Part shown: positions 7,110 to 35,784 of the stretch, piece after piece
How positions within the stretch are numbered: the stretch's first letter is position 1
Layout: each line of letters opens with the position of its first letter
IMG/VR virus record: IMGVR_UViG_3300043788_000069
Span: 1-35,872 of that record
DNA length: 35,872 nt
Source: a virus
Reading direction: 5' to 3' (one strand)
Program-made: the position numbers and the translations under genes
Notes under the pieces: model-generated
Database searches by the model: none
What the model was told of the DNA's origin: nothing
What the model saw: the letters and a program-made list of their open reading frames with translations, nothing else

Positions 7110-8099
7110 ATGTCAAGACCACGCCAGAAGAATACGCACCTACCGAAGTACGTGACGGTGATTCACGGCAGCTACTGGTATCGCCCGCCGGATGGGGAGT
7201 CGGTAAGGATCGGCGCGGAGGGCGAGGAGCACCTGGTGTGGCGCTTCATGCTCGACAAGACGAGTCCCGTCACCACGTCCACGAGCGCGACGCTCCACGA
7301 GTATTTCGAGCGCTACAAGCGGGAAGTGCTGCCTTTCTTGGGCGTGAGGACCCAGAAGGACTACGCGCGGCACATCGCGACACTCGATACCTCTTTCGGC
7401 CACATGAAGCCGGACGACCTGAAGCCGCGACACATCGGGGCGTTCCTCGATCGGCCCAAGGGCAAGATCCAGGCGAACCGTCAGGTCGCAGTGCTCTCGG
7501 CGCTCTACTCCAAGATGGTCGGCCGCTGGTACGTCGCCGATCACAATCCCTGTATCGGCGTCGAGCGCAACTCCTCCAAGCGCCGCGATCGCTATGTGAG
7601 CGATGCCGAATATGCGGCGCTGTACTCGGGGGCCTCTCCGCGTGTGCGGCTTGCGATGGATCTGGCACTACTCACCGGACAGAGACAGGGCGATCTGCTC
7701 GCTCTCCCATGGAAGAACGTCACGGACGAAGGGATCCTCTTTCGACAAGGGAAGACCGGCAAGCGGCTGCTCGTGGGTTTATCAGACGCTTTGCAGGCGG
7801 TCCTGGCGCGAGCTCGGGTGATGGTTCCGGTGGTGCAGATTGGCGGCTACGTCATACGTACGCGCTCTGGGAAGCCCTACACGTCCGAAGGCTTCCGCGC
7901 CTGCTGGCAGCGGACCATGAATCGAGCGATGCGGAGTGGAGCTCTCCAGGAGCGCTTCACCTTCCACGATCTGCGCGCCAAAGCCGTGAGCGACAGCAAG
8001 ACGCTGGAAGAAGCTTTCGAGCGCGCGGGACATCAGTCGATGCAGATGACGCGCGGGACTTACGACAGGGGAATCCGCAAAGTCACACCACTGAAGTAG
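7110..8099 (+). CDS. int: Tyrosine-family integrase
   Basis: A 329-residue site-specific recombinase. The N-terminal part has an arm-binding-like region (PKYVTVIHGSYWYRPP), then a core-binding SAM-like domain (~residues 60-145) and the catalytic domain. All catalytic residues are visible: R192 (LTGQRQGDLL), K215 (RQGKTGKR), H286 and R289 (FHDLRAKA), H308 (AGHQS) and nucleophile Y318 (GTYDRG). GGAGGGAGAGGG lies upstream of the ATG. It reads toward the tRNA-Lys-like attP at 8534-8638, so it should integrate the phage into a host tRNA-Lys gene. No classic excisionase is seen nearby. Confidence 0.95.
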   Translation: MSRPRQKNTHLPKYVTVIHGSYWYRPPDGESVRIGAEGEEHLVWRFMLDKTSPVTTSTSATLHEYFERYKREVLPFLGVRTQKDYARHIATLDTSFGHMKPDDLKPRHIGAFLDRPKGKIQANRQVAVLSALYSKMVGRWYVADHNPCIGVERNSSKRRDRYVSDAEYAALYSGASPRVRLAMDLALLTGQRQGDLLALPWKNVTDEGILFRQGKTGKRLLVGLSDALQAVLARARVMVPVVQIGGYVIRTRSGKPYTSEGFRACWQRTMNRAMRSGALQERFTFHDLRAKAVSDSKTLEEAFERAGHQSMQMTRGTYDRGIRKVTPLK

Positions 8100-12346: not shown

Positions 12347-12757
12347 ATGCGTGACCTACTGTGGCTCATGACCGGATCTTCCAGAACGGAAGATGGCTGC
12401 TGGTTGTGGAACGGGACCCCAAAAGCAGACTACCCACATATAACTAAGAAAGGCCTGTTGGTTCACCGAATAGCCTACGAGATAGTGCGTGGCCCAATTC
12501 CAAACGGCTTGTGCGTTTGCCACAAGTGTGACAAACCACATTGTGTAAACCCTGAGCATCTTTTCCTAGGAACCATTGCCGATAACAATCGCGACAAAAC
12601 CGCTAAGAAACGTGACTGGGAATCAAGAAAAACAGCTTGCCCCAAAGGGCACCCATACGATGAAACAAACACTTACTTGAGCAAGAGAAACAAACGCTAC
12701 TGCCGTCAATGTCAGAAAGAACGTCGCTCACTTCGTCATAGCCTTCAGCTCGCTTAA
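12347..12757 (+). CDS. Free-standing HNH homing endonuclease
   Basis: A 136-residue protein with CWLWNG (18-23), VHRIAYEIVRGPIPNGLCVC HxCD (39-62) and CVNPEHLFLGTIADN (66-80): the HNH site is H59, N68, H71 with a CxxC-type metal frame. The C-terminal CPKGHPYDETNTY...RYCRQCQ is the zinc/DNA-binding module frequent in phage homing HNH proteins. It lies on the plus strand within minus-strand late genes, is more AT-rich than its neighbours, and has its own TATAAT. Its 3' end overlaps the spanin gene's 3' end by 30 bases. These are signs of invasion by a mobile endonuclease. Confidence 0.9.
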   Translation: MRDLLWLMTGSSRTEDGCWLWNGTPKADYPHITKKGLLVHRIAYEIVRGPIPNGLCVCHKCDKPHCVNPEHLFLGTIADNNRDKTAKKRDWESRKTACPKGHPYDETNTYLSKRNKRYCRQCQKERRSLRHSLQLA

Positions 12758-13539: not shown

Positions 13540-13950
13540 TTACGCATTGCCTGTCAGCAAAATCTGGCCGAGTTGCTCGTACCTCGCTTCGTCCTCGGCG
13601 GTCGAGGTGTGACACTCGGCCTGTGCGCCCGCCCAGTCCTCCACCGTGAGCGCCTGGATGAGCCGCGGCCAGTTGTTCACAAAGCCGTACAGCCCTTCGT
13701 TCAGAGCGATGTCGATGCACACGGACTGGCGCGCATCGTTCAGCGTGCCGTACCACACAAAGGTATGGAGCGATCGGTCGAGTTCTTGCACCTGAGCCAC
13801 AAGGAGTGCAGAGGCTGCGTATTCGCTGATCCCGGCTGAGGTATTGAACCCATATCCTATCGTCACGTAGCCGCGGGTATCCGTGTAGGCTTTGGCCCTG
13901 AACCCCTCCTCCACCTTGAGTCTCGTCACCGCGATGTCGACCGCGCTCAT
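13540..13950 (-). CDS. T4-type lysozyme endolysin (GH24)
   Basis: A 136-residue muramidase. The E-9-D-6-T triad of T4 lysozyme is exact: E15 (VEEGF), D24 (YTDTRGY) and T30 (VTIGYG). The C-terminal ALNEGLYGFVNNWPRLIQAL and DWAGAQAEC fit the helical lobe. It has no signal or SAR segment, so it needs a holin for release. The ATG overlaps the stop of the membrane/coiled-coil gene upstream (ATGA). It cleaves peptidoglycan glycan strands at the end of infection. Confidence 0.92.
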   Translation of the reverse strand: MSAVDIAVTRLKVEEGFRAKAYTDTRGYVTIGYGFNTSAGISEYAASALLVAQVQELDRSLHTFVWYGTLNDARQSVCIDIALNEGLYGFVNNWPRLIQALTVEDWAGAQAECHTSTAEDEARYEQLGQILLTGNA

Positions 13951-26076: not shown

Positions 26077-27105
26077 TCAGATCGTCAGGAAAGTGAACTG
26101 CGTGCCGCTCGATCCGACCGTGCCCACGCGCGCCGTGGTGCGGGGCTTCGCCAGTACGAGCTCGAGCAGCGTCACCACCGCCCCGATGTACCCGAGCTGG
26201 TAGACGGGCAGCAGCGACTCGAAGCCGGTGAAGGCGAAGTTCGCCATCTGGTGGAAGTAGATCGAGAGGTAATTGCTGTTCCAGATGTAGAGCAACCCCT
26301 CCGGGCAATAGGGGTCGGCGTACACCGGCACCCCGCCGATATCGACCGCCCTGAAGAGCGCCCGCGGCCGGTCGGCATCGGAGTCGAATCCCATGCCGGG
26401 CTGGATCTGGTAGGACTCGAGCGGGGCGAAGTCATTGGCGACGAGCTTGAGCCACGTCCCAAGTCCGCAGACCGCCATGGTCGGCATCTCGGAGCCGTAT
26501 TTATTGGCCCCCACCAAGTACTGAAGAATTAAGGCCCGAGTAGGCGCGACACCGCCGGAGTTGTAGACCTTGGCCTGCCAGAAGGAGGAAGCCGTGCGGT
26601 TGATGTTGCCGTAGGTCGCGGCATTCGTCCCGTCATCGATCGCGCCATTGAGGCCGATCAGCTGCTGCGTGTTCGTGACGTTGTTGAAGAGCGCCTGCGA
26701 GAGCACGTCCACGGTCGAATTGGTGGCGTCGTTGAACACGGCCTCGATGCGCGGCACCACGGCGTGATCGTTCTGGATCGCCGCTTCCATCCCATAGAAG
26801 GGGATGGGGGTGATTAAACCCTTGAGATTAAACTCCGCCGGCTGAATGCCCTGGATGTTCGCTGGCTGCTGGAAGCCGCCATCGAATCCCACCCACTGCG
26901 GGATGGTGAGCGCCTGGCCTTGCACCGGGACGGTGACGGAGGAAATTCCCCCCGTCGCCGTCTTCGCGTTCTGCATCAGTCCCGCGATCGTCGGTGAGGC
27001 GTTGTAAATCTGCACGTACATCGTCGGGACGAACGCGCGACGGGTGATGGCTTGGTACTCAGTAAACTGTGCACCAACCGGCATTACGCCCGATGAAAAA
27101 GGCAT
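26077..27105 (-). CDS. Major capsid protein
   Basis: A 342-residue protein after a scaffold-like gene with AGGAGTCCGT before ATG. FTEYQAITRRAFVPTMYVQI, TVPVQGQALTIPQWVGFDGG and PFYGMEAAIQNDHAVVPRIE resemble the N-terminal and E-loop regions of HK97-fold coat proteins. The C-terminal part (LYIWNSNYLSIYFHQMANFA FTGFESLLPVYQLGYIGAVV) fits the P-domain strands. Length, context (portal-scaffold-coat) and composition make the call firm, although no family was aligned. Confidence 0.85.
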   Translation of the reverse strand: MPFSSGVMPVGAQFTEYQAITRRAFVPTMYVQIYNASPTIAGLMQNAKTATGGISSVTVPVQGQALTIPQWVGFDGGFQQPANIQGIQPAEFNLKGLITPIPFYGMEAAIQNDHAVVPRIEAVFNDATNSTVDVLSQALFNNVTNTQQLIGLNGAIDDGTNAATYGNINRTASSFWQAKVYNSGGVAPTRALILQYLVGANKYGSEMPTMAVCGLGTWLKLVANDFAPLESYQIQPGMGFDSDADRPRALFRAVDIGGVPVYADPYCPEGLLYIWNSNYLSIYFHQMANFAFTGFESLLPVYQLGYIGAVVTLLELVLAKPRTTARVGTVGSSGTQFTFLTI

Positions 27106-28389: not shown

Positions 28390-28457
28390 TTACGGGTCCT
28401 GCCGTCGCGCATCCACCTTGCGGTGAGCAGCGGTATGGCGCCCAAAGGAGCGCTCAT
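28380..28457 (-). CDS. Possible 25-residue peptide after portal
   Basis: ATG overlaps the portal stop (ATGA). MSAPLGAIPLLTARWMRDGR ends TRNLN, with a stop inside the A/T-rich repeat. It is coupled to the portal and followed by the Arg-rich peptide gene. It may be only a coupling frame. Confidence 0.4.
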   Translation of the reverse strand: MSAPLGAIPLLTARWMRDGRTRNLN

Positions 28458-30181
28458 GTCGCTGATTGATTATTACCACCCGCTTGCCGTTTGGACAAGA
28501 TCGAGAGCTTCTTGATGTTGTTTTCCTCTTCCTTCGCGCGTTGCTCGGCGGGCTCGATCTCGGACTTTAATTTGTGGAGCAGCTGCTGCTTGCGCGGGAT
28601 GTCCAGCAGCTTGAGCGCTTCCTCTCTGTCGATGGCCTGCAGCTCAAGCAGCTTAAATATCTTGGCTTCGTAGTTCTCGAGGAACACTGGGGATGACGAG
28701 TGTCCGTCCACCTTGGCGACGAAGTCCTCCGGGAACTGGTTCGCGAAGAATTGCGCTGGGGAATCGGTGCGGTCCTCCCGCATCGGCCGCTTGTCGTAGC
28801 GGCGCAGGATGCACACGATGGTGGTGGCGACTGCATCGAGGGAGTTCTCGACGATGAGCGCCTTGCTCTTGGAGCGCGTCGAGCCGAGTTGCGAGAGCGT
28901 CTGCGCCTGGCCCTGAGAGCGAACCCCCTTCTCGCCCTTGCCCTGGTTGATGGCGGAGAGGCCCGAAGTCTCATCCATCATCTCATCGATCTTGTCGACA
29001 TCGTGCCAGAGGTCGGCGGGGATGGTCGGCTGGTGTTCCTTGACCGTAGCCACCGGGCTATCGGCCGTCATGATCCCGGACGGTGTATCGAGTGCCATCT
29101 GCATCTCATCCGGGATCGCCGAGATGCCGGTCATCGAGAAGGGCGAGTGCGCCTGTTTCTTGAGCAGATGGCGGATGTCGGCAATTCTTTCGTTGCGCAT
29201 GTCCTGGAGCGGGACCAGCTTCTCCACCGCGGAGTGTCCCCACGCGTAGTCGTGCGTCGGGAGTGGGCAGACCTGGATGTAGGGCAGCACCCGCGAGACG
29301 AAGATCTTCCCGAGCGGCCGATCCCAGATCGGATAGGACGGCTTCATGAAGGTCACGACGCGCCAGTCGGCGATGGCATCGTCGTACACGTAGAGCTCGG
29401 TGAGCTCGACCATGTCCTCGATCGTCGTCGGCCGGTACATGGTGGCAAGCGGAGTCGCCCAGAACGAAGCGTTACCCGTAATCGAGCCACCTTGAATGGA
29501 CGTTACAATGAGACGGTCGATGGGACCGGCGGAGATTTGCTCGGTGTTCGACCAGGCGCCGGCCTGTGCGTTGGCGATGATCTCGTCCTTACGTGCGTTC
29601 ATCCCAGCTTCGAGCTCGTTGGCGAGCTGGGACTTGGTAATCATGTAGGTCTCGCAGAAGGCTTCCTGCCGGTAGAGCCCGTAGCGATCCTCGCGCAGTA
29701 ACCCTAAGTTGTGCGGCTCGACCAGGAAGTGCTGCAGCTGAAAGCCCTTGCTGCCGTCCTCGTTCTCCCAGAGCTTGGGACGCAGCTTGACGAACATCGA
29801 GCCGTAGACGCCCGACCACTCGAGCGCGATCTTGAAGTCATCATCGATCCCGCCCTCTGACTTGCCGTGCCACGCCTCGTGCAGCCGTTCGGTCATCGCC
29901 TCGACCTTGAACTGCTCATCGGCCGGCACTGACACGCCGAGGTCGATGTTGAAGCGCGTCGTCTCGGGCGAAAACATGAAGGAGGACAGCTGCTCCATGT
30001 GCGAGAAGATCTTGTTATACCGGCCGCCCATGTCCTGGAGGCCCTGCTCGTCCGTGCCGAACAGGTAGTACGCGCGCATCATGCGATAGAACGAGCGGCG
30101 CTCCTCGCGGCTGGCGGTGCATTTGCGAATGAGCTCTACGTACAGCTGCAATCGCTCGACTGAACTCTCAGGGACTTTCAT
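28454..30181 (-). CDS. Portal protein
   Basis: A 575-residue protein located after the terminase. SVERLQLYVELIRKCTASRE, ERRSFYRMMRAYYLFGTDEQ and FSHMEQLSSFMFSPETTRFN start the helical wing; the middle has LQHFLVEPHNLGLLREDRYG; the crown/stem region shows KLVPLQDMRNERIADIRHLL and TSGLSAINQGKGEKGVRSQG, typical of portals (a conserved helix then Gly-rich tunnel loop), and the C-terminus is a long coiled coil (LLHKLKSEIEPAEQRAKEEE). It forms the dodecameric DNA channel. Coupled (ATGA) to the 150-residue gene. Confidence 0.85.
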   Translation of the reverse strand: MKVPESSVERLQLYVELIRKCTASREERRSFYRMMRAYYLFGTDEQGLQDMGGRYNKIFSHMEQLSSFMFSPETTRFNIDLGVSVPADEQFKVEAMTERLHEAWHGKSEGGIDDDFKIALEWSGVYGSMFVKLRPKLWENEDGSKGFQLQHFLVEPHNLGLLREDRYGLYRQEAFCETYMITKSQLANELEAGMNARKDEIIANAQAGAWSNTEQISAGPIDRLIVTSIQGGSITGNASFWATPLATMYRPTTIEDMVELTELYVYDDAIADWRVVTFMKPSYPIWDRPLGKIFVSRVLPYIQVCPLPTHDYAWGHSAVEKLVPLQDMRNERIADIRHLLKKQAHSPFSMTGISAIPDEMQMALDTPSGIMTADSPVATVKEHQPTIPADLWHDVDKIDEMMDETSGLSAINQGKGEKGVRSQGQAQTLSQLGSTRSKSKALIVENSLDAVATTIVCILRRYDKRPMREDRTDSPAQFFANQFPEDFVAKVDGHSSSPVFLENYEAKIFKLLELQAIDREEALKLLDIPRKQQLLHKLKSEIEPAEQRAKEEENNIKKLSILSKRQAGGNNQSAT

Positions 30182-30630
30182 TTGGGCTTCTGGAACACGG
30201 TTCTTGAACGGAGCGACGGTTTGCTGTCGAGCAGTGGTTTCATGGGCGTGTTGGTGCCCTGAAAGCCCGCCTGCTCGTGGGAGTACCGCGGGGCTTCACC
30301 TGTCCCTGCCCAGCCGGTCGGTAGCATCGCCTTCCACTGCGCCACCTGATGCTGCGCGTATTCGCGCTTCACGCCGCCTGAGCCGACGAGAGTCGAGGAC
30401 ATCACCGATTGACCGTCACGGTTGCTCATGTCGGTCATGCCGAGATCCTGTGCCATCACCCGCATGTTTCGATCGGTCGCGGAGGTGCTGCCGGAACGAA
30501 TGCGGGGAGCCGTGCGGAACTCCTGCACCACGAACCCCGCCGAGCAGCCATGCGGGCAACGGGGCTTCTCCTCGGTGGACTCGAAGTCGGTCACGCACGC
30601 CACACACTTCCACTCTTTAACGACTGCCAC
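30178..30630 (-). CDS. Zinc-ribbon protein between terminase and portal, 150 aa
   Basis: GTG 30630. An N-terminal WKCVACVTDFESTEEKPRCP HGC forms a Cys4 ribbon; the rest has RIRSGSTSATDRNMRVMAQD LGMTDMSNRDG and ends basic. It overlaps terminase by 14 bases and portal by 4. The position suggests a packaging accessory or small virion protein. Similar short CxxC...CPHGC proteins sit at this place in other podovirus-like genomes, as far as I recall. Confidence 0.65.
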   Translation of the reverse strand: MAVVKEWKCVACVTDFESTEEKPRCPHGCSAGFVVQEFRTAPRIRSGSTSATDRNMRVMAQDLGMTDMSNRDGQSVMSSTLVGSGGVKREYAQHQVAQWKAMLPTGWAGTGEAPRYSHEQAGFQGTNTPMKPLLDSKPSLRSRTVFQKPK

Positions 30631-32467
30631 GACCTTGCTCCACGTTGTAAACCTTGACTCCCGCCGCTTCCTGCTTCCTCTTGTAACCGAGATTGACGAG
30701 ATACCCCTTCACCGCGCGGTCGACCATCTGACCCACGTCCGGTCCTTCCTTCGCAGGAGCGGAGGGTTTCTCGTCTTCCTTGTACACGACGTTGCGCGCG
30801 ATCAGCTTGAGTCGCAACTGGTCGTTGTAGGCTTTGTAGGCAAGCGCCGCGGCGATCACTCTGTCGTCCTTGGAGTTTCCAGACGCTCCGATCCAGCCAC
30901 CATCTCTCACGATCGACTGCATCTCATCGAGTAGCTGTCGGCTGTGCGGCTGATACACCCCGCGCTCGAAGGCGTCGCGGTACATGGAGAGGTAGGAGTC
31001 CTTAATCCGGTCGGTGGTGAGCGTGTGCTTACCCGCAGGTCGGCCTAGCAGCGAGTCCTCCTTGACGTACAGGAACTCCTGCATCTTGCGCACCACATCC
31101 ATCATGGTCTTGGCTTGACCCGGGATGTAGCTTCTACCCGCTAAACGACGGAGGTTGTCGATCTCCTGGATGATGGCGCCTCCGGGTCCGTTGATCTCGA
31201 TGTTGTAGACGCAGGGCTGATAGCAGCCGCAGAGGTAGCAGATCACCCACGCGAAGGTGTAGGTCGACATGTCCACGACGTTGAGCTCGGCCACCTGCTC
31301 GACGCGGTTGCCCCAGCATCTATCGACTGAGATGCAGAACTTGTCCGCCTGCTCGGAGGAGCCGTAGGCGGGATCGGCGCCGAGGGTGTAGAACCCACCC
31401 TTCACCGGCTCCGCCCATATCTTAAGGTGAGCGGAGCGCTCGGGGACTTCGATCACATTGGTGTCGGTGAACTCTTCCCCGAACTGGAAGCGATAGCAGG
31501 CGAGTGGCCTACCCTCGCCCAGCACGCGCTTGTAGGCGCTGGTTAAAGAAGCGCCGGTGAAGAAGTTCGTACCACTCGCAACAAAGGCTTCCTCGGGAGT
31601 GGTCGGATACTCCCGGCGCATCTCCATCTCGTCCGTGATCTTCTCGGCCCGCATCCAGCGATACCAGGCGAACTGCTCATCGTCGAGTTCGTGACCGTAC
31701 GTGCGCTCAACGTAGCGGCGCACGTCCCGCTCCTCGGCGGAGGCGCGGCCTTTCACACCCCAGTATTGCGCGTACTTCGCGGATCCCTTGGGCACGCGGT
31801 AGAACTCATTGCTCCACCAGGAGATGAAGATGGGCCGCACGGACACCGAGTCGTGCGCTTCCCGCCACATGCGCTCGAAGTGGTTGAAGCCGTTGGCCGT
31901 GGTTTCCCAGTGATAGAAGCGGTCGGGGTTGTGCTCGGCCATGGTGGCCTTGAAACCCGCGATCTGCGCCGGGTCGCCCCAATACGCCACCTCAGTCGCA
32001 TGGGCGAAGGAGAGCGCCGAGGAACGACCCAAGGTCTTGGCGGAAGTCTCACGGACGCCCGCGACCTTGTACTGCAGCACCGACCTATTACCGAGGACCA
32101 GCTGATACTTGTTATCGACCACCACATCCTGCGACCACTCATCCGGGAGGCCCGCGATGTAGGTCGACATGATGGCGCGGAACTGTTCTCTAGCGCCCTC
32201 CTCGTGCACCACGATCGCGCCAGAGGTGCCCGCGTGCTTGAAGGCGTGGTACATGTCCAGTGCTAAAGAGATGGTGGAGATGCCCACCTGGCGGGCTTTG
32301 AGCGTCACGAACTCGTGAACGTCCTGCTCAAGGCCCTTGCGAATCTCCGCGAGGAAGCGCTTCTGAGTGCCCAAGAGCGCCTTGCCCAAGACCTGAGCAC
32401 CCTTCTCCTTCGTGTCAATAGTCAGGGCATTCAGGAAGCCCTGGAGGTTGTCGAAGTCGAGGCTCAA
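30617..32467 (-). CDS. terL: Terminase large subunit
   Basis: TTG 32467 overlaps the upstream stop (TTGA), with GGAGGA 9 bases before. A 616-residue packaging motor. ATPase: the Walker A-like KARQVGIST (57-65), a Walker B-type ALSFAHATEV with E159, and the coupling motif ETTANG (188-193). Nuclease (RNase H-like): D365 (GADPAYG), E424 (YNIEINGPG) and D534/D535 (KDDRVIAAA). The C-terminal tail is basic (LGYKRKQEAAGVKV). It cuts concatemers and drives DNA into the procapsid through the portal. No small subunit was recognised nearby. Confidence 0.93.
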   Translation of the reverse strand: MSLDFDNLQGFLNALTIDTKEKGAQVLGKALLGTQKRFLAEIRKGLEQDVHEFVTLKARQVGISTISLALDMYHAFKHAGTSGAIVVHEEGAREQFRAIMSTYIAGLPDEWSQDVVVDNKYQLVLGNRSVLQYKVAGVRETSAKTLGRSSALSFAHATEVAYWGDPAQIAGFKATMAEHNPDRFYHWETTANGFNHFERMWREAHDSVSVRPIFISWWSNEFYRVPKGSAKYAQYWGVKGRASAEERDVRRYVERTYGHELDDEQFAWYRWMRAEKITDEMEMRREYPTTPEEAFVASGTNFFTGASLTSAYKRVLGEGRPLACYRFQFGEEFTDTNVIEVPERSAHLKIWAEPVKGGFYTLGADPAYGSSEQADKFCISVDRCWGNRVEQVAELNVVDMSTYTFAWVICYLCGCYQPCVYNIEINGPGGAIIQEIDNLRRLAGRSYIPGQAKTMMDVVRKMQEFLYVKEDSLLGRPAGKHTLTTDRIKDSYLSMYRDAFERGVYQPHSRQLLDEMQSIVRDGGWIGASGNSKDDRVIAAALAYKAYNDQLRLKLIARNVVYKEDEKPSAPAKEGPDVGQMVDRAVKGYLVNLGYKRKQEAAGVKVYNVEQGRGSR

Positions 32468-32670
32468 TTCGCCGGCTCCTCCGGGGCGACTGTGACTTCG
32501 ACCGGTGGCTCTGGGGGCGGGTCGAGTACATTCGCCATCTTCAGGAGCTCGGTGGCGAGATAGCGCGCCTCTGCGTGGGTCATCTGCAGTACGCGGTCTC
32601 TGAGCGATAACCGGATCCCGCCCTCGGGATGATCGGGGACGGTGTTGAGTGAGATGTGATGCGAGAACAT
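32464..32670 (-). CDS. Small protein before terminase, 68 aa
   Basis: ATG 32670 with AAGGAGA 6 bases upstream, in copy 2 of the 15-bp repeat. MFSHHISLNTVPDHPEGGIR, LSLRDRVLQMTHAEARYLAT ELLKMA, then a Pro/Glu-rich tail (PPPEPPVEVTVAPEEP). The helix-rich middle could be a DNA-binding piece, but it is too short for a typical small terminase. Coupled to TerL by TTGA. Confidence 0.65.
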   Translation of the reverse strand: MFSHHISLNTVPDHPEGGIRLSLRDRVLQMTHAEARYLATELLKMANVLDPPPEPPVEVTVAPEEPAN

Positions 32671-32674
32671 GTCG

Positions 32675-32689
32675 TCTCCTTAATTTAAG
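32675..32689 (-). repeat. 15-bp repeat with strong ribosome-binding site (copy 2)
   Basis: The same 15 bases as 28375-28389, exactly 4300 bases apart. It contains the TAA stop of the repeat/PASTA virion gene and the AAGGAGA of the 68-residue gene. Confidence 0.85.
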
Positions 32690-34229
32690 GCACGGAAGTC
32701 GTGACGGTGGTGCTGTAGGAAGGATACTGCGGCCCTTGGGAAAGCGTGAGGATGATGACCGTGCCGAGCGTTGCGAGCGATCCTCCGACGAGTGACTGGT
32801 TCACCACCGTACCTCCGGGCGAACCGCTCGCTACCCACATGTACGGCCCGAGAGAAAGTCCCGCATTGAAGATCGCTTGGTCTGCATCCTTGGCGAAGAG
32901 TCCGATCACAGTCGGCACCACGACCTGACCGTAGGCTGGCGATGCAGGTCCCGAGGAAGCCGTGATGGTGACGACCGAATTGACCGGGAGCAGTGTCCCG
33001 GACGGTGGCGACTGCGAGAGCACGATGTCCGGCTTCACCGTGGTCGAGGGCGCATAAAGGACAGTCGGCTCTAACCCCGCGTTCACGACGTTGTAGATCG
33101 CCTGTTGTAGCAGGAGCCCAACGAGCGAGGGGACCGTCTCCCACAGGAGCCCCGGCCAGCAGAAATTGAACGTCGCCGCCAGATCACGCGGGTCGTAAGT
33201 CTGCATCGGTAGGACAGCGGTGCCCGAGGGGAGGACGAGAAGCGGCACGGGAGGCGTGAATTGGGTGAAGACATAGGGTGCGGTGTCTCCCGGCTGCTGG
33301 AGTGCAAAGGCGAAGTCCGTGACCGAGAGCGTGCTCGGTATGAACGGAACCGGCGGGTGATCCCGGAAGAACGCGAACGGCGCTACCGGATCATCGTGGA
33401 GCTTCGCGAACACCCCGGGGCGCGGCAGCTGGATGGTGGTGATGACCCTGTAGGCGACCCAGACAAAAGGGGCGGTGTCGGCCTCGAGTGCGCGGGTGAG
33501 GATCTGCGCGCCGAAGGGCGGGATCTTCCCCGGCACCGGCATGACGAAGCGCGAATAGGCGAGAGGTGCGCCTTCTGCCAGCTGCTGAAGTCCGAATGCC
33601 TGTCCTGCGATCGGGGGACGTGAGATCTGCGTGTTCGCTGCCGGGGTGAATGGCGAGCGGACGTGAGTGAATGCTGCGGTGTCGGCCTCAAGCTGACGCG
33701 TGAATATCCCGTATCCGAACGGGCGGAATGACCCGGCGGTCGTGATGGGCTTTGCCGTGCCCGTCCACGTCCAGGGAGCGGTGTCTGCGACATGCTGCGG
33801 CGGGAATGCAAAGTCGGTGACGGTGACGTTGCCCGGGAAGATCGGGATGAGCGTCGATTGCGTGAACGTGAATGGCGCAGCGGAGTCCGGCTGCAACTCC
33901 GAGATCGCCCGCATGTAAGGCGGTCCAGGAGGATGGACCGCGTAGCCCGCCGCAAAGAAGAACGGCGCATCGGAGAGCAGATCCCACCAGCCGCCTGCCT
34001 TGCCGAAGGACGCCCTGAATCCCGGTGCCTGAAGATTAAGGAACCGCGCGAAGCCGGGACTTAAGAAGCTGAAGGCTTCGCGGTAGTCCTCGGTCAGTCC
34101 CTTCTGGATGAATACCGCGGCGCCGCGCGCGGGGTTCTTCGGTGTGACGACGCCTGGGAACGTCGACAGCGTGTAGACGAACGGCGCCCCGCCGAGGGAG
34201 GAATTAAGTTGCGAGCAGACGACGGTCAC
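32685..34229 (-). CDS. Virion protein with ~33-residue repeats and two PASTA domains
   Basis: GTG 34229 with GGAG 7 bases upstream; 514 residues. Residues ~12-345 are built from about ten imperfect repeats of roughly 33 residues centred on a D(T/A)APFxF motif: GGAPFVYT, SDAPFFFA, DSAAPFTFT, ADTAPWTWT, ADTAAFTHV, ADTAPFVWV, PVAPFAFF, GDTAPYVFT. Residues ~365-428 (VPSLVGLLLQQAIYNVVNAG) and ~437-500 (VPTVIGLFAKDADQAIFNAG) are PASTA-type modules: a VP..vG....A...l..aGL opening and a closing V.....P..G. PASTA domains bind peptidoglycan in bacterial kinases and PBPs. It is probably a virion or tail-surface protein that touches the cell wall. Confidence 0.75.
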   Translation of the reverse strand: MTVVCSQLNSSLGGAPFVYTLSTFPGVVTPKNPARGAAVFIQKGLTEDYREAFSFLSPGFARFLNLQAPGFRASFGKAGGWWDLLSDAPFFFAAGYAVHPPGPPYMRAISELQPDSAAPFTFTQSTLIPIFPGNVTVTDFAFPPQHVADTAPWTWTGTAKPITTAGSFRPFGYGIFTRQLEADTAAFTHVRSPFTPAANTQISRPPIAGQAFGLQQLAEGAPLAYSRFVMPVPGKIPPFGAQILTRALEADTAPFVWVAYRVITTIQLPRPGVFAKLHDDPVAPFAFFRDHPPVPFIPSTLSVTDFAFALQQPGDTAPYVFTQFTPPVPLLVLPSGTAVLPMQTYDPRDLAATFNFCWPGLLWETVPSLVGLLLQQAIYNVVNAGLEPTVLYAPSTTVKPDIVLSQSPPSGTLLPVNSVVTITASSGPASPAYGQVVVPTVIGLFAKDADQAIFNAGLSLGPYMWVASGSPGGTVVNQSLVGGSLATLGTVIILTLSQGPQYPSYSTTVTTSVP

Positions 34230-34275: not shown

Positions 34276-34737
34276 TTATTCGCGCCAGTTCACGTAGTAG
34301 CTCGAGCCGTTGGCATCGGTTCCCAGACGGTTGCGGCAACTGAGTTGCTGCGAGCCGGCGGTGGCCGATCCCGAGACGAGCCAGGAGCCATAGACGGGGA
34401 AGGTCATGATGCCCACCCCGCCGAAGGCGTTCCACGCCATCTCCAGCAGGCCCGCAGGTTCCGCCGGGATAGTGGGCTGAGTCGTCCAGGACGTTACAAG
34501 CTGCGTGAGCGGTGTGGTCCCCGGGTTGCCGGAGACCGGTGTCTGGGTTGTGGCGGTGGCGCCGTTGGCGGTCGGGCGGCTCCAGGCGGTGCGGTAGGAC
34601 GTCGCGGTGTTGAGGTTGCCGCCCCAGGAGATGGACTCCACCATGGCGATCGCGCCCACGGTGTTCATGTTCATCGTCCAGTTATCGTTCGACGTGTTGG
34701 GGGTGAAGGCCGACTGACCGCCGCCGTATGAAGCCAT
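34276..34737 (-). CDS. Minor virion protein, 153 aa
   Basis: Asn/Thr/Trp-rich and beta-type: TPNTSNDNWTMNMNTVGAIA, MVESISWGGNLNTATSYRTA WSRPT, ending SSYYVNWRE. The WGG....S.RTAW.RPT phrase is one I associate with small structural proteins of podo- and siphoviruses. It is probably a decoration or tail protein. It follows a 13-base gap from the zinc-cluster gene. Confidence 0.65.
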   Translation of the reverse strand: MASYGGGQSAFTPNTSNDNWTMNMNTVGAIAMVESISWGGNLNTATSYRTAWSRPTANGATATTQTPVSGNPGTTPLTQLVTSWTTQPTIPAEPAGLLEMAWNAFGGVGIMTFPVYGSWLVSGSATAGSQQLSCRNRLGTDANGSSYYVNWRE

Positions 34738-34750
34738 GGAACGCTCCTAT

Positions 34751-35095
34751 CTAGGTATGACCTCGATAGGTGAACAAAGACTGTTCCGGCTCCAGGCCCG
34801 CCACCTTGCGGAACTGCGCACGCGCGTAGTCCGCGCTCATCAGTTTCTCTATTTTCTTCAGGAATGGCAAGCAGCCGTGTGTCTTAAAGTGCTGCCCACA
34901 CTCGCCGTTGATGCAACAGGGGCTCATGCACTTCATGCACCAGCCGTTCATGCCGGTGCCGATGTCGCGCCACTCCTGTAATTTAATCACCTTCTGGCAG
35001 TGCGGGCAGAGTCCCACGTCGCACTCCTCCATCCCCTCGCCTGCGGCGCGGTTGTCGTTCATCAAATACCCGGCGCCTGAAGTGAGCGTTTTCAT
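34751..35095 (-). CDS. Cys-rich zinc-cluster protein, 114 aa
   Basis: ECDVGLCPHCQKVIKLQEWR, then GWCMKCMSPCCINGECGQHF KTHGC LPF give about ten Cys plus His, enough for two or three zinc sites. The motif GxCMKCxxPxC...C....C.PFLKKIE is found in short proteins encoded in head/tail regions of other phages. It may act in assembly or bind nucleic acid. The ATG overlaps the stop of the 230-residue gene (ATGA). Confidence 0.7.
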   Translation of the reverse strand: MKTLTSGAGYLMNDNRAAGEGMEECDVGLCPHCQKVIKLQEWRDIGTGMNGWCMKCMSPCCINGECGQHFKTHGCLPFLKKIEKLMSADYARAQFRKVAGLEPEQSLFTYRGHT

Positions 35096-35784
35096 GGCGT
35101 CACAAAAACTCCGCTCGATGTAATCTGCTGCTGGATCACTTCCTGGAACACCGCGATCAGCACGTACCGACCTGACCCTTCCGCCACCGTGAAGGTGGCG
35201 GCGTAATTCCCGGGCGCGATGATGCGCTTGTCCTCGGCGAGTGCGAAGAAGGTGGCTCCGCTCTCATTCCAGGAAGGAGTTCGCCCTGTGTAACCCGTGC
35301 CCGCCGCAGGCGCTTGATTGTAGTTGTGGATCTCGGCGATGAATCCCCATGCCATCGCGGGGAAGCTCCCGACGCTGACATTGCCCGAGGTATAGGCGTC
35401 GGCTCCCGTGCCGGGGGATTCATTCTCCTGGCCGTTCGCGGTGATGAGATTGGTGAGGCCCGCGTACTGCCCCGCATAGATCGCGCGATTGGTACAGGTC
35501 GCGGAGTAATTCGAGGTGAATGTAGTGTTGCCGGCGGCGGAGTTGAGCGCATAGAAGAACGCGCAGCCGGCGCCGTTCACGGAATTGAAGTAGGTTGCTA
35601 TCGGTACGTAGACGTTGCCGCCGACGTTGTCAGATATCGTGGTGGTGACGGCGGTCGCATTCGCGTAGCGCGAGGCGAACACCAGGAGGTTCCCTTGGGC
35701 GACGGCAATCGCTGACGCCGGCATGGACGTCCCAGTGGATCCATCGGTGGAGGCTTGCGTGTCGTTGATGAAGTTGTAGGCCAT
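35092..35784 (-). CDS. Virion beta-sandwich protein, 230 aa
   Basis: MAYNFINDTQASTDGSTGTS is followed by AIAVAQGNLLVFASRYANAT, NVYVPIATYFNSVNGAGCAF FYALNSAAGNTTFTSN, RYVLIAVFQEV. The GNLLVV....N.......SD..GN.Y........ pattern is typical of small Ig-like or adhesion-type phage and bacterial surface proteins. It is likely a tail or capsid-surface protein that binds cells. Ends with TSSGVFVTP. Confidence 0.65.
   Translation of the reverse strand: MAYNFINDTQASTDGSTGTSMPASAIAVAQGNLLVFASRYANATAVTTTISDNVGGNVYVPIATYFNSVNGAGCAFFYALNSAAGNTTFTSNYSATCTNRAIYAGQYAGLTNLITANGQENESPGTGADAYTSGNVSVGSFPAMAWGFIAEIHNYNQAPAAGTGYTGRTPSWNESGATFFALAEDKRIIAPGNYAATFTVAEGSGRYVLIAVFQEVIQQQITSSGVFVTP

Follow-up and report, generated by a model that had tools for sequence, protein, structure and literature searches.

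A repeat-bearing phage protein with two C-terminal PASTA domains encoded upstream of the terminase gene

PASTA domains have been investigated as the cell-wall-sensing parts of bacterial kinases and PBPs, and among the papers listed by full-text searches of open-access PMC, none describes one in a phage late-gene protein, judged by title and abstract. What, then, could a protein that ends in two of them do beside the terminase gene of a phage? We addressed this question for IMGVR_UViG_3300043788_000069, a single virus record of 35,872 bases that is covered whole by the stretch analyzed here (the window).

The PASTA gene and its surroundings

Judged from its gene content, the phage nature of the window is secure: it encodes an integrase, an endolysin, a major head protein and a terminase large subunit (TerL), together with weak portal matches (Table 1). 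Among annotated phages, two Manatee Spring genomes come closest (MCP ~51% and TerL ~41% identical), and closer MCP relatives, at 79–83% identity, were found among IMG/VR contigs. MCP relatives are scattered over MAG contigs of several phyla and so point to no single host; the sole hint of a diderm host is a spanin-like gene, read by eye and without a family match.

An earlier note on this DNA had placed a gene at 32685-34229, directly upstream of the terminase genes and away from the tail genes. The gene is real and its position was borne out, with two refinements: it runs on the minus strand, from 34229 to 32685 (the plus-strand reading contains several stops), and a possible 68-aa ORF, which matched neither Pfam nor PHROG families, intervenes before TerL. 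The window genes around it are tightly packed and share the direction of terL, and the coding strand shows no terminator-like site from the PASTA gene to terL. The adjoining 153-aa neighbor has no significant family match or homolog of its own; the family of the L064 protein that it resembles by eye is located between portal and MCP in L050.

Table 1. Features of the window and PASTA genes of related lineages
Feature	Position	Strand	Remarks
Integrase	7110-8099	+	
HNH_3 endonuclease gene	12347-12757	+	adjoins lysis region; strand opposite to endolysin gene
Endolysin	13540-13950	-	
Major head protein	26077-27105	-	
Portal	28454-30181	-	weak portal matches
TerL	30617-32467	-	matches annotated phage terminases, ~41% identity
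Possible 68-aa ORF	32464-32670	-	between PASTA gene and TerL
APF-repeat/PASTA protein, 514 aa	32685-34229	-	whole ORF; GTG start at 34229
PASTA domain 2	32730-32924	-	~residues 436-500, boundaries approximate; second Pfam stretch and A1 profile
PASTA domain 1	32955-33137	-	residues 365-425; Pfam E 8e-15 and structural match
Repeat region	33144-34229	-	residues 1-362; eleven motifs spaced 30-37 aa, eight of them individually supported
153-aa neighbor	34276-34737	-	likeness to L064:2488-2958 by eye only
230-aa cassette neighbor	35092-35784	-	homolog in same L064 slot (1753-2478), phmmer E 6e-14
PASTA gene, G005/L022			804 aa, three PASTA stretches; short ORF between gene and TerL
PASTA gene, G006/L023			148 aa, PASTA only; short ORF between gene and TerL
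PASTA gene, L063			149 aa; ends within ~12 bases of TerL; A1 profile only, E 3e-20
PASTA gene, L064			286 aa, three stretches; ends within ~12 bases of TerL
PASTA gene, L067			430 aa, three stretches; ends within ~12 bases of TerL
PASTA gene, L056			176 aa, one stretch; ~6 kb upstream of TerL

Two PASTA domains and a repeat array

The Pfam PASTA family PF03793 matched the 514-aa protein in two stretches, the best covering residues 365-425, with an E-value of 8.2e-15 and a score of 55 bits that passes the cut-off of 23.2. The protein also matched PknB PASTA chains with phmmer, and a three-sequence A1 profile recovered PknB (E 2e-13) as well as PrkC. The PASTA fold consists of one helix packed on a three-stranded sheet, and the AF2 model has this topology, with a block pLDDT of ~65–89 over residues 361-460 and 71–75 over 471-500, dropping to 44 at residues 461-470. 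VIA-align comparison of the model with solved PASTA chains gave Z scores of 11–12; model residues 361-427 superposed on PBP1, PknB and StkP chains at Z 9–11 with an rmsd of 1.3–1.9 Å. Two-domain structural matches (5e10 and 3py9) were obtained with a large rmsd, and the way in which the model orients the two domains to each other is therefore not reliable. The Pfam and structural evidence confirms the two C-terminal PASTA domains that had been proposed. Apart from PASTA and a single sub-threshold match, Pfam found nothing in the protein, neither a kinase nor a transpeptidase domain. The PASTA pair (residues 363-501) is poor in charged residues, with no Arg and two Lys.

Along the N-terminal region, A-P-F-type motifs end at residues 17, 53, 90, 120, 153, 187, 223, 255, 285, 319 and 354. 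Nine A[PAT][FWY] motifs were counted, where shuffled sequences averaged 2.3 and never exceeded 8, and the best 18-residue self-match scored 61, compared with at most 45 after shuffling. Leave-one-out profiles supported R1 and R4-R10 (0–2 of 2000 shuffles were as good), ruling out a chance origin for eight of the eleven units, and gave no support to R2, R3 and R11. The "about ten" repeats noted previously thus become eight clear copies and three that are degenerate but in register. Their best-conserved core is D-T-A-P-F-x-F, preceded by A-F about eleven residues upstream and followed by a Pro-rich stretch. Structure prediction had been suggested as a check on both parts of the protein; it yielded the PASTA fold for the domains, while the repeat array received no confident fold, either in the plain AF2 run (pLDDT ~30) or with the repeats' self-alignment (pLDDT 33).

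No homolog of the repeat region was detected. The 514-aa protein matched no PHROG family at E ≤ 1, IMG/VR contained no relative by the P0001 peptide patterns, and pairs and triples of DTAPF/DTAAF, searched as DNA patterns, retrieved unrelated or short-period repeats only; a search of plasmids and 297 genomes of the L051 phylum also returned nothing, which shows little as it had no positive control. Many phage adhesins belong to no described family. Arrays of ATEAGDTAAF / ATEGPDTAAF repeats were observed in L034:4779-7229 and L037:9474-10358, and Rhizobium phage RHph_TM3_14A carries a similar EGPDVPDF array downstream of its capsid gene. These EGxDxAAF / ATEAxDTAAF repeats share with the window repeats a similar-looking motif around D-T-A-[AP]-F but have a shorter period, and the short window repeat profile (27 columns) gave no support to a kinship, reaching L045 at E 10 with L034 and L037 not among the matches listed. 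Likewise, MAFFT aligned the repeats in register with the N-terminus of the L064 PASTA protein, and the repeat profile did not support the relationship.

A variable slot before TerL in related lineages

PASTA matches are nearly absent among 50,697 phage records. Within the terminase clade of the window, six further lineages also encode a PASTA protein upstream of TerL; in five of them the gene is either adjacent to TerL or separated from it by a single small ORF (Table 1). Every one that was scored with Pfam passed the cut-off; L063 was scored by the A1 profile alone. When 32 TerL sequences were placed on a tree, the clade of five that includes the window held four of the seven PASTA carriers, and the others fell outside it; PASTA carriers cluster on this tree and require at least three changes, and the placement of L056 and L067 is unsure because of their long branches. 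Five PASTA pairs, once aligned, proved too divergent for scanning, and the L063/L064 pair retrieved only itself.

What precedes the PASTA domains differs among these proteins. Pfam identified He_PIG Ig domains in L022, IPT-like sequence is seen by eye in L022 and L067, and the L064 N-terminus possibly holds one or two APF-like units. L023 and L063 have no N-terminal part and appear to be PASTA-only.

The neighboring genes vary as well. HNH genes beside the terminase are known members of packaging modules; an HNH endonuclease family occurs upstream of TerL in many clade loci (Pfam HNH in L063, L023, L056 and L022), and the PASTA gene lies between the HNH gene and TerL in L022, L023, L056, L063 and L068. 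The window contig ends on the PASTA side before any HNH gene is reached. The PASTA gene is accompanied by a legume-lectin protein in L056 and by a protein with a weak Fn3 match in L067, and a family of 423–627 aa is common to L022, L064 and L067, with no convincing Pfam domain besides the weak Fn3 and a hydrolase-like appearance by eye only. In other clade members the slot holds a family 2 glycosyltransferase, an FkbM methyltransferase, a DNA methylase or a radical SAM gene. In this clade, the interval ahead of TerL emerges as a variable site for surface-related genes. Given the enzymes encoded there, late-operon position alone is no proof of virion membership.

A 274-aa protein directly precedes TerL in a sub-clade (L097, L101, L113, L120, L123 and L129; DUF5672 in L097); others carry glycosyltransferase or radical SAM genes in its place. 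The G001/G002 slot (L031:13241-14359, L025:19082-19981) encodes proteins without a Pfam match that look glycoside hydrolase-like by eye. A 988-aa fiber-like protein of G006 (L024:4946-7912), with ~ten SGQTATFTEGT-type repeats near its C-terminus, matches phrog_36177, a family of unknown function. Upstream of TerL in L056 (3459-8001), three consecutive proteins have signal-peptide-like starts by a crude hydrophobicity check, and in two of them, one being the legume-lectin protein, the start is followed by the motif AKLARGGA. A simple hydrophobicity check revealed no obvious signal peptides in the cassette proteins of the window, L022, L064 and L067.

Possible roles of the PASTA protein

We consider that the gene encodes a swappable late-operon adhesin module contacting the host envelope, probably as an appendage of the virion, and give this reading about an even chance (roughly 0.5). 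In such a temperate phage, a modular adhesin-type protein would be encoded among the late genes for packaging and head, relatives retaining its C-terminal PASTA pair and exchanging the N-terminal part. The protein would most likely be displayed on, or released with, the virion; the APF repeats would serve as an extended Pro/Phe-rich spacer, and the PASTA pair may touch a component of the host envelope or form a compact tip. The observed PASTA fold, repeat array, conserved gene position, exchanged N-termini and adhesive-type neighbors in relatives are the ground on which we infer virion membership, a spacer role and envelope contact, and the labels "virion protein" and "stalk or fibre" of the earlier note belong with these latter proposals. 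The kept PASTA end, the swapped arms, the adhesive neighbors and the lack of an evident signal peptide fit a modular appendage; against it stand the enzymes in the slot, the signal-like starts in L056, the repeats without a modeled fold and the missing PHROG structural match.

Some of these same points suit an accessory cassette with no share in the virion, expressed in the infected or lysogenic cell, whose products would act at the host surface in superinfection exclusion, envelope modification or adhesion. The slot is accessory in character, given the glycosyltransferases, FkbM methyltransferases and DNA methylase encoded there in other members of the clade, and L056 cassette proteins begin with signal-peptide-like sequences, as expected of exported proteins; both points keep this explanation open, and the window does encode an integrase. 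We nevertheless regard it as somewhat unlikely, since the cassette proteins of the window, L022, L064 and L067 lack obvious signal peptides and the genes are co-directional and packed with terL. That the PASTA pair is a ligand-free structural stalk unit, interchangeable with the Ig-like units of relatives, appears very improbable: PASTA adjoins other beta-sandwich-type modules in L022 and L067 and the pair has few charged residues, but a mere spacer would not be expected to be kept while other modules change, nor to stand alone as it apparently does in L023 and L063.

The earlier note had also suggested that the PASTA domains bind peptidoglycan during entry. PrkC and PknB use their PASTA domains to bind muropeptides of the DAP type (PMC3601408, PMC6428115), which together with the confirmed fold speaks for binding of peptidoglycan or lipid II during cell-wall passage. 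In PrkC, however, Arg500 is required for DAP-muropeptide binding (PMC3601408), and the arginine-free pair of the window protein cannot contain this contact; the SK and NQ linker residues proposed as contacts in PknB (PMC6428115) align with SS...GQ and are not conserved. With only two Lys in the pair as well, the residue content does not support binding of DAP-muropeptides through the known arginine mechanism, and another ligand or contact mode may be compatible with the missing residues. If the host is diderm, as the spanin-like gene hints, peptidoglycan would moreover not be surface-exposed. The suggestion is therefore weakly supported at best, and we consider it distinctly improbable.

The window protein shares the PASTA fold and its tandem arrangement with PknB, PrkC/Stk, StkP, PBP1 and PBP2x, but differs from these kinases and PBPs in having no kinase or transpeptidase domain, in being phage-encoded beside the terminase and in its arginine-free pair. 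Modular phage adhesins and tail fibers with Ig-like, Fn3 or lectin modules are alike in their swapped modules and in the lectin/Fn3 neighbors of the relatives, whereas the PASTA gene lies upstream of TerL and not downstream of the tail genes, and its product, a putative virion component, ends in PASTA.

The position near the terminase is kept across diverged lineages, which suggests that the module is under selection. As a speculative and, on balance, unlikely extension, bacterial PASTA domains captured by this phage clade could have become a conserved virion-borne module for envelope docking, encoded in the packaging cluster, with exchangeable N-terminal arms and a ligand or contact mode distinct from DAP recognition through arginine. 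The natural arginine-free PASTA pair would offer a test of envelope binding without the known contact residue.
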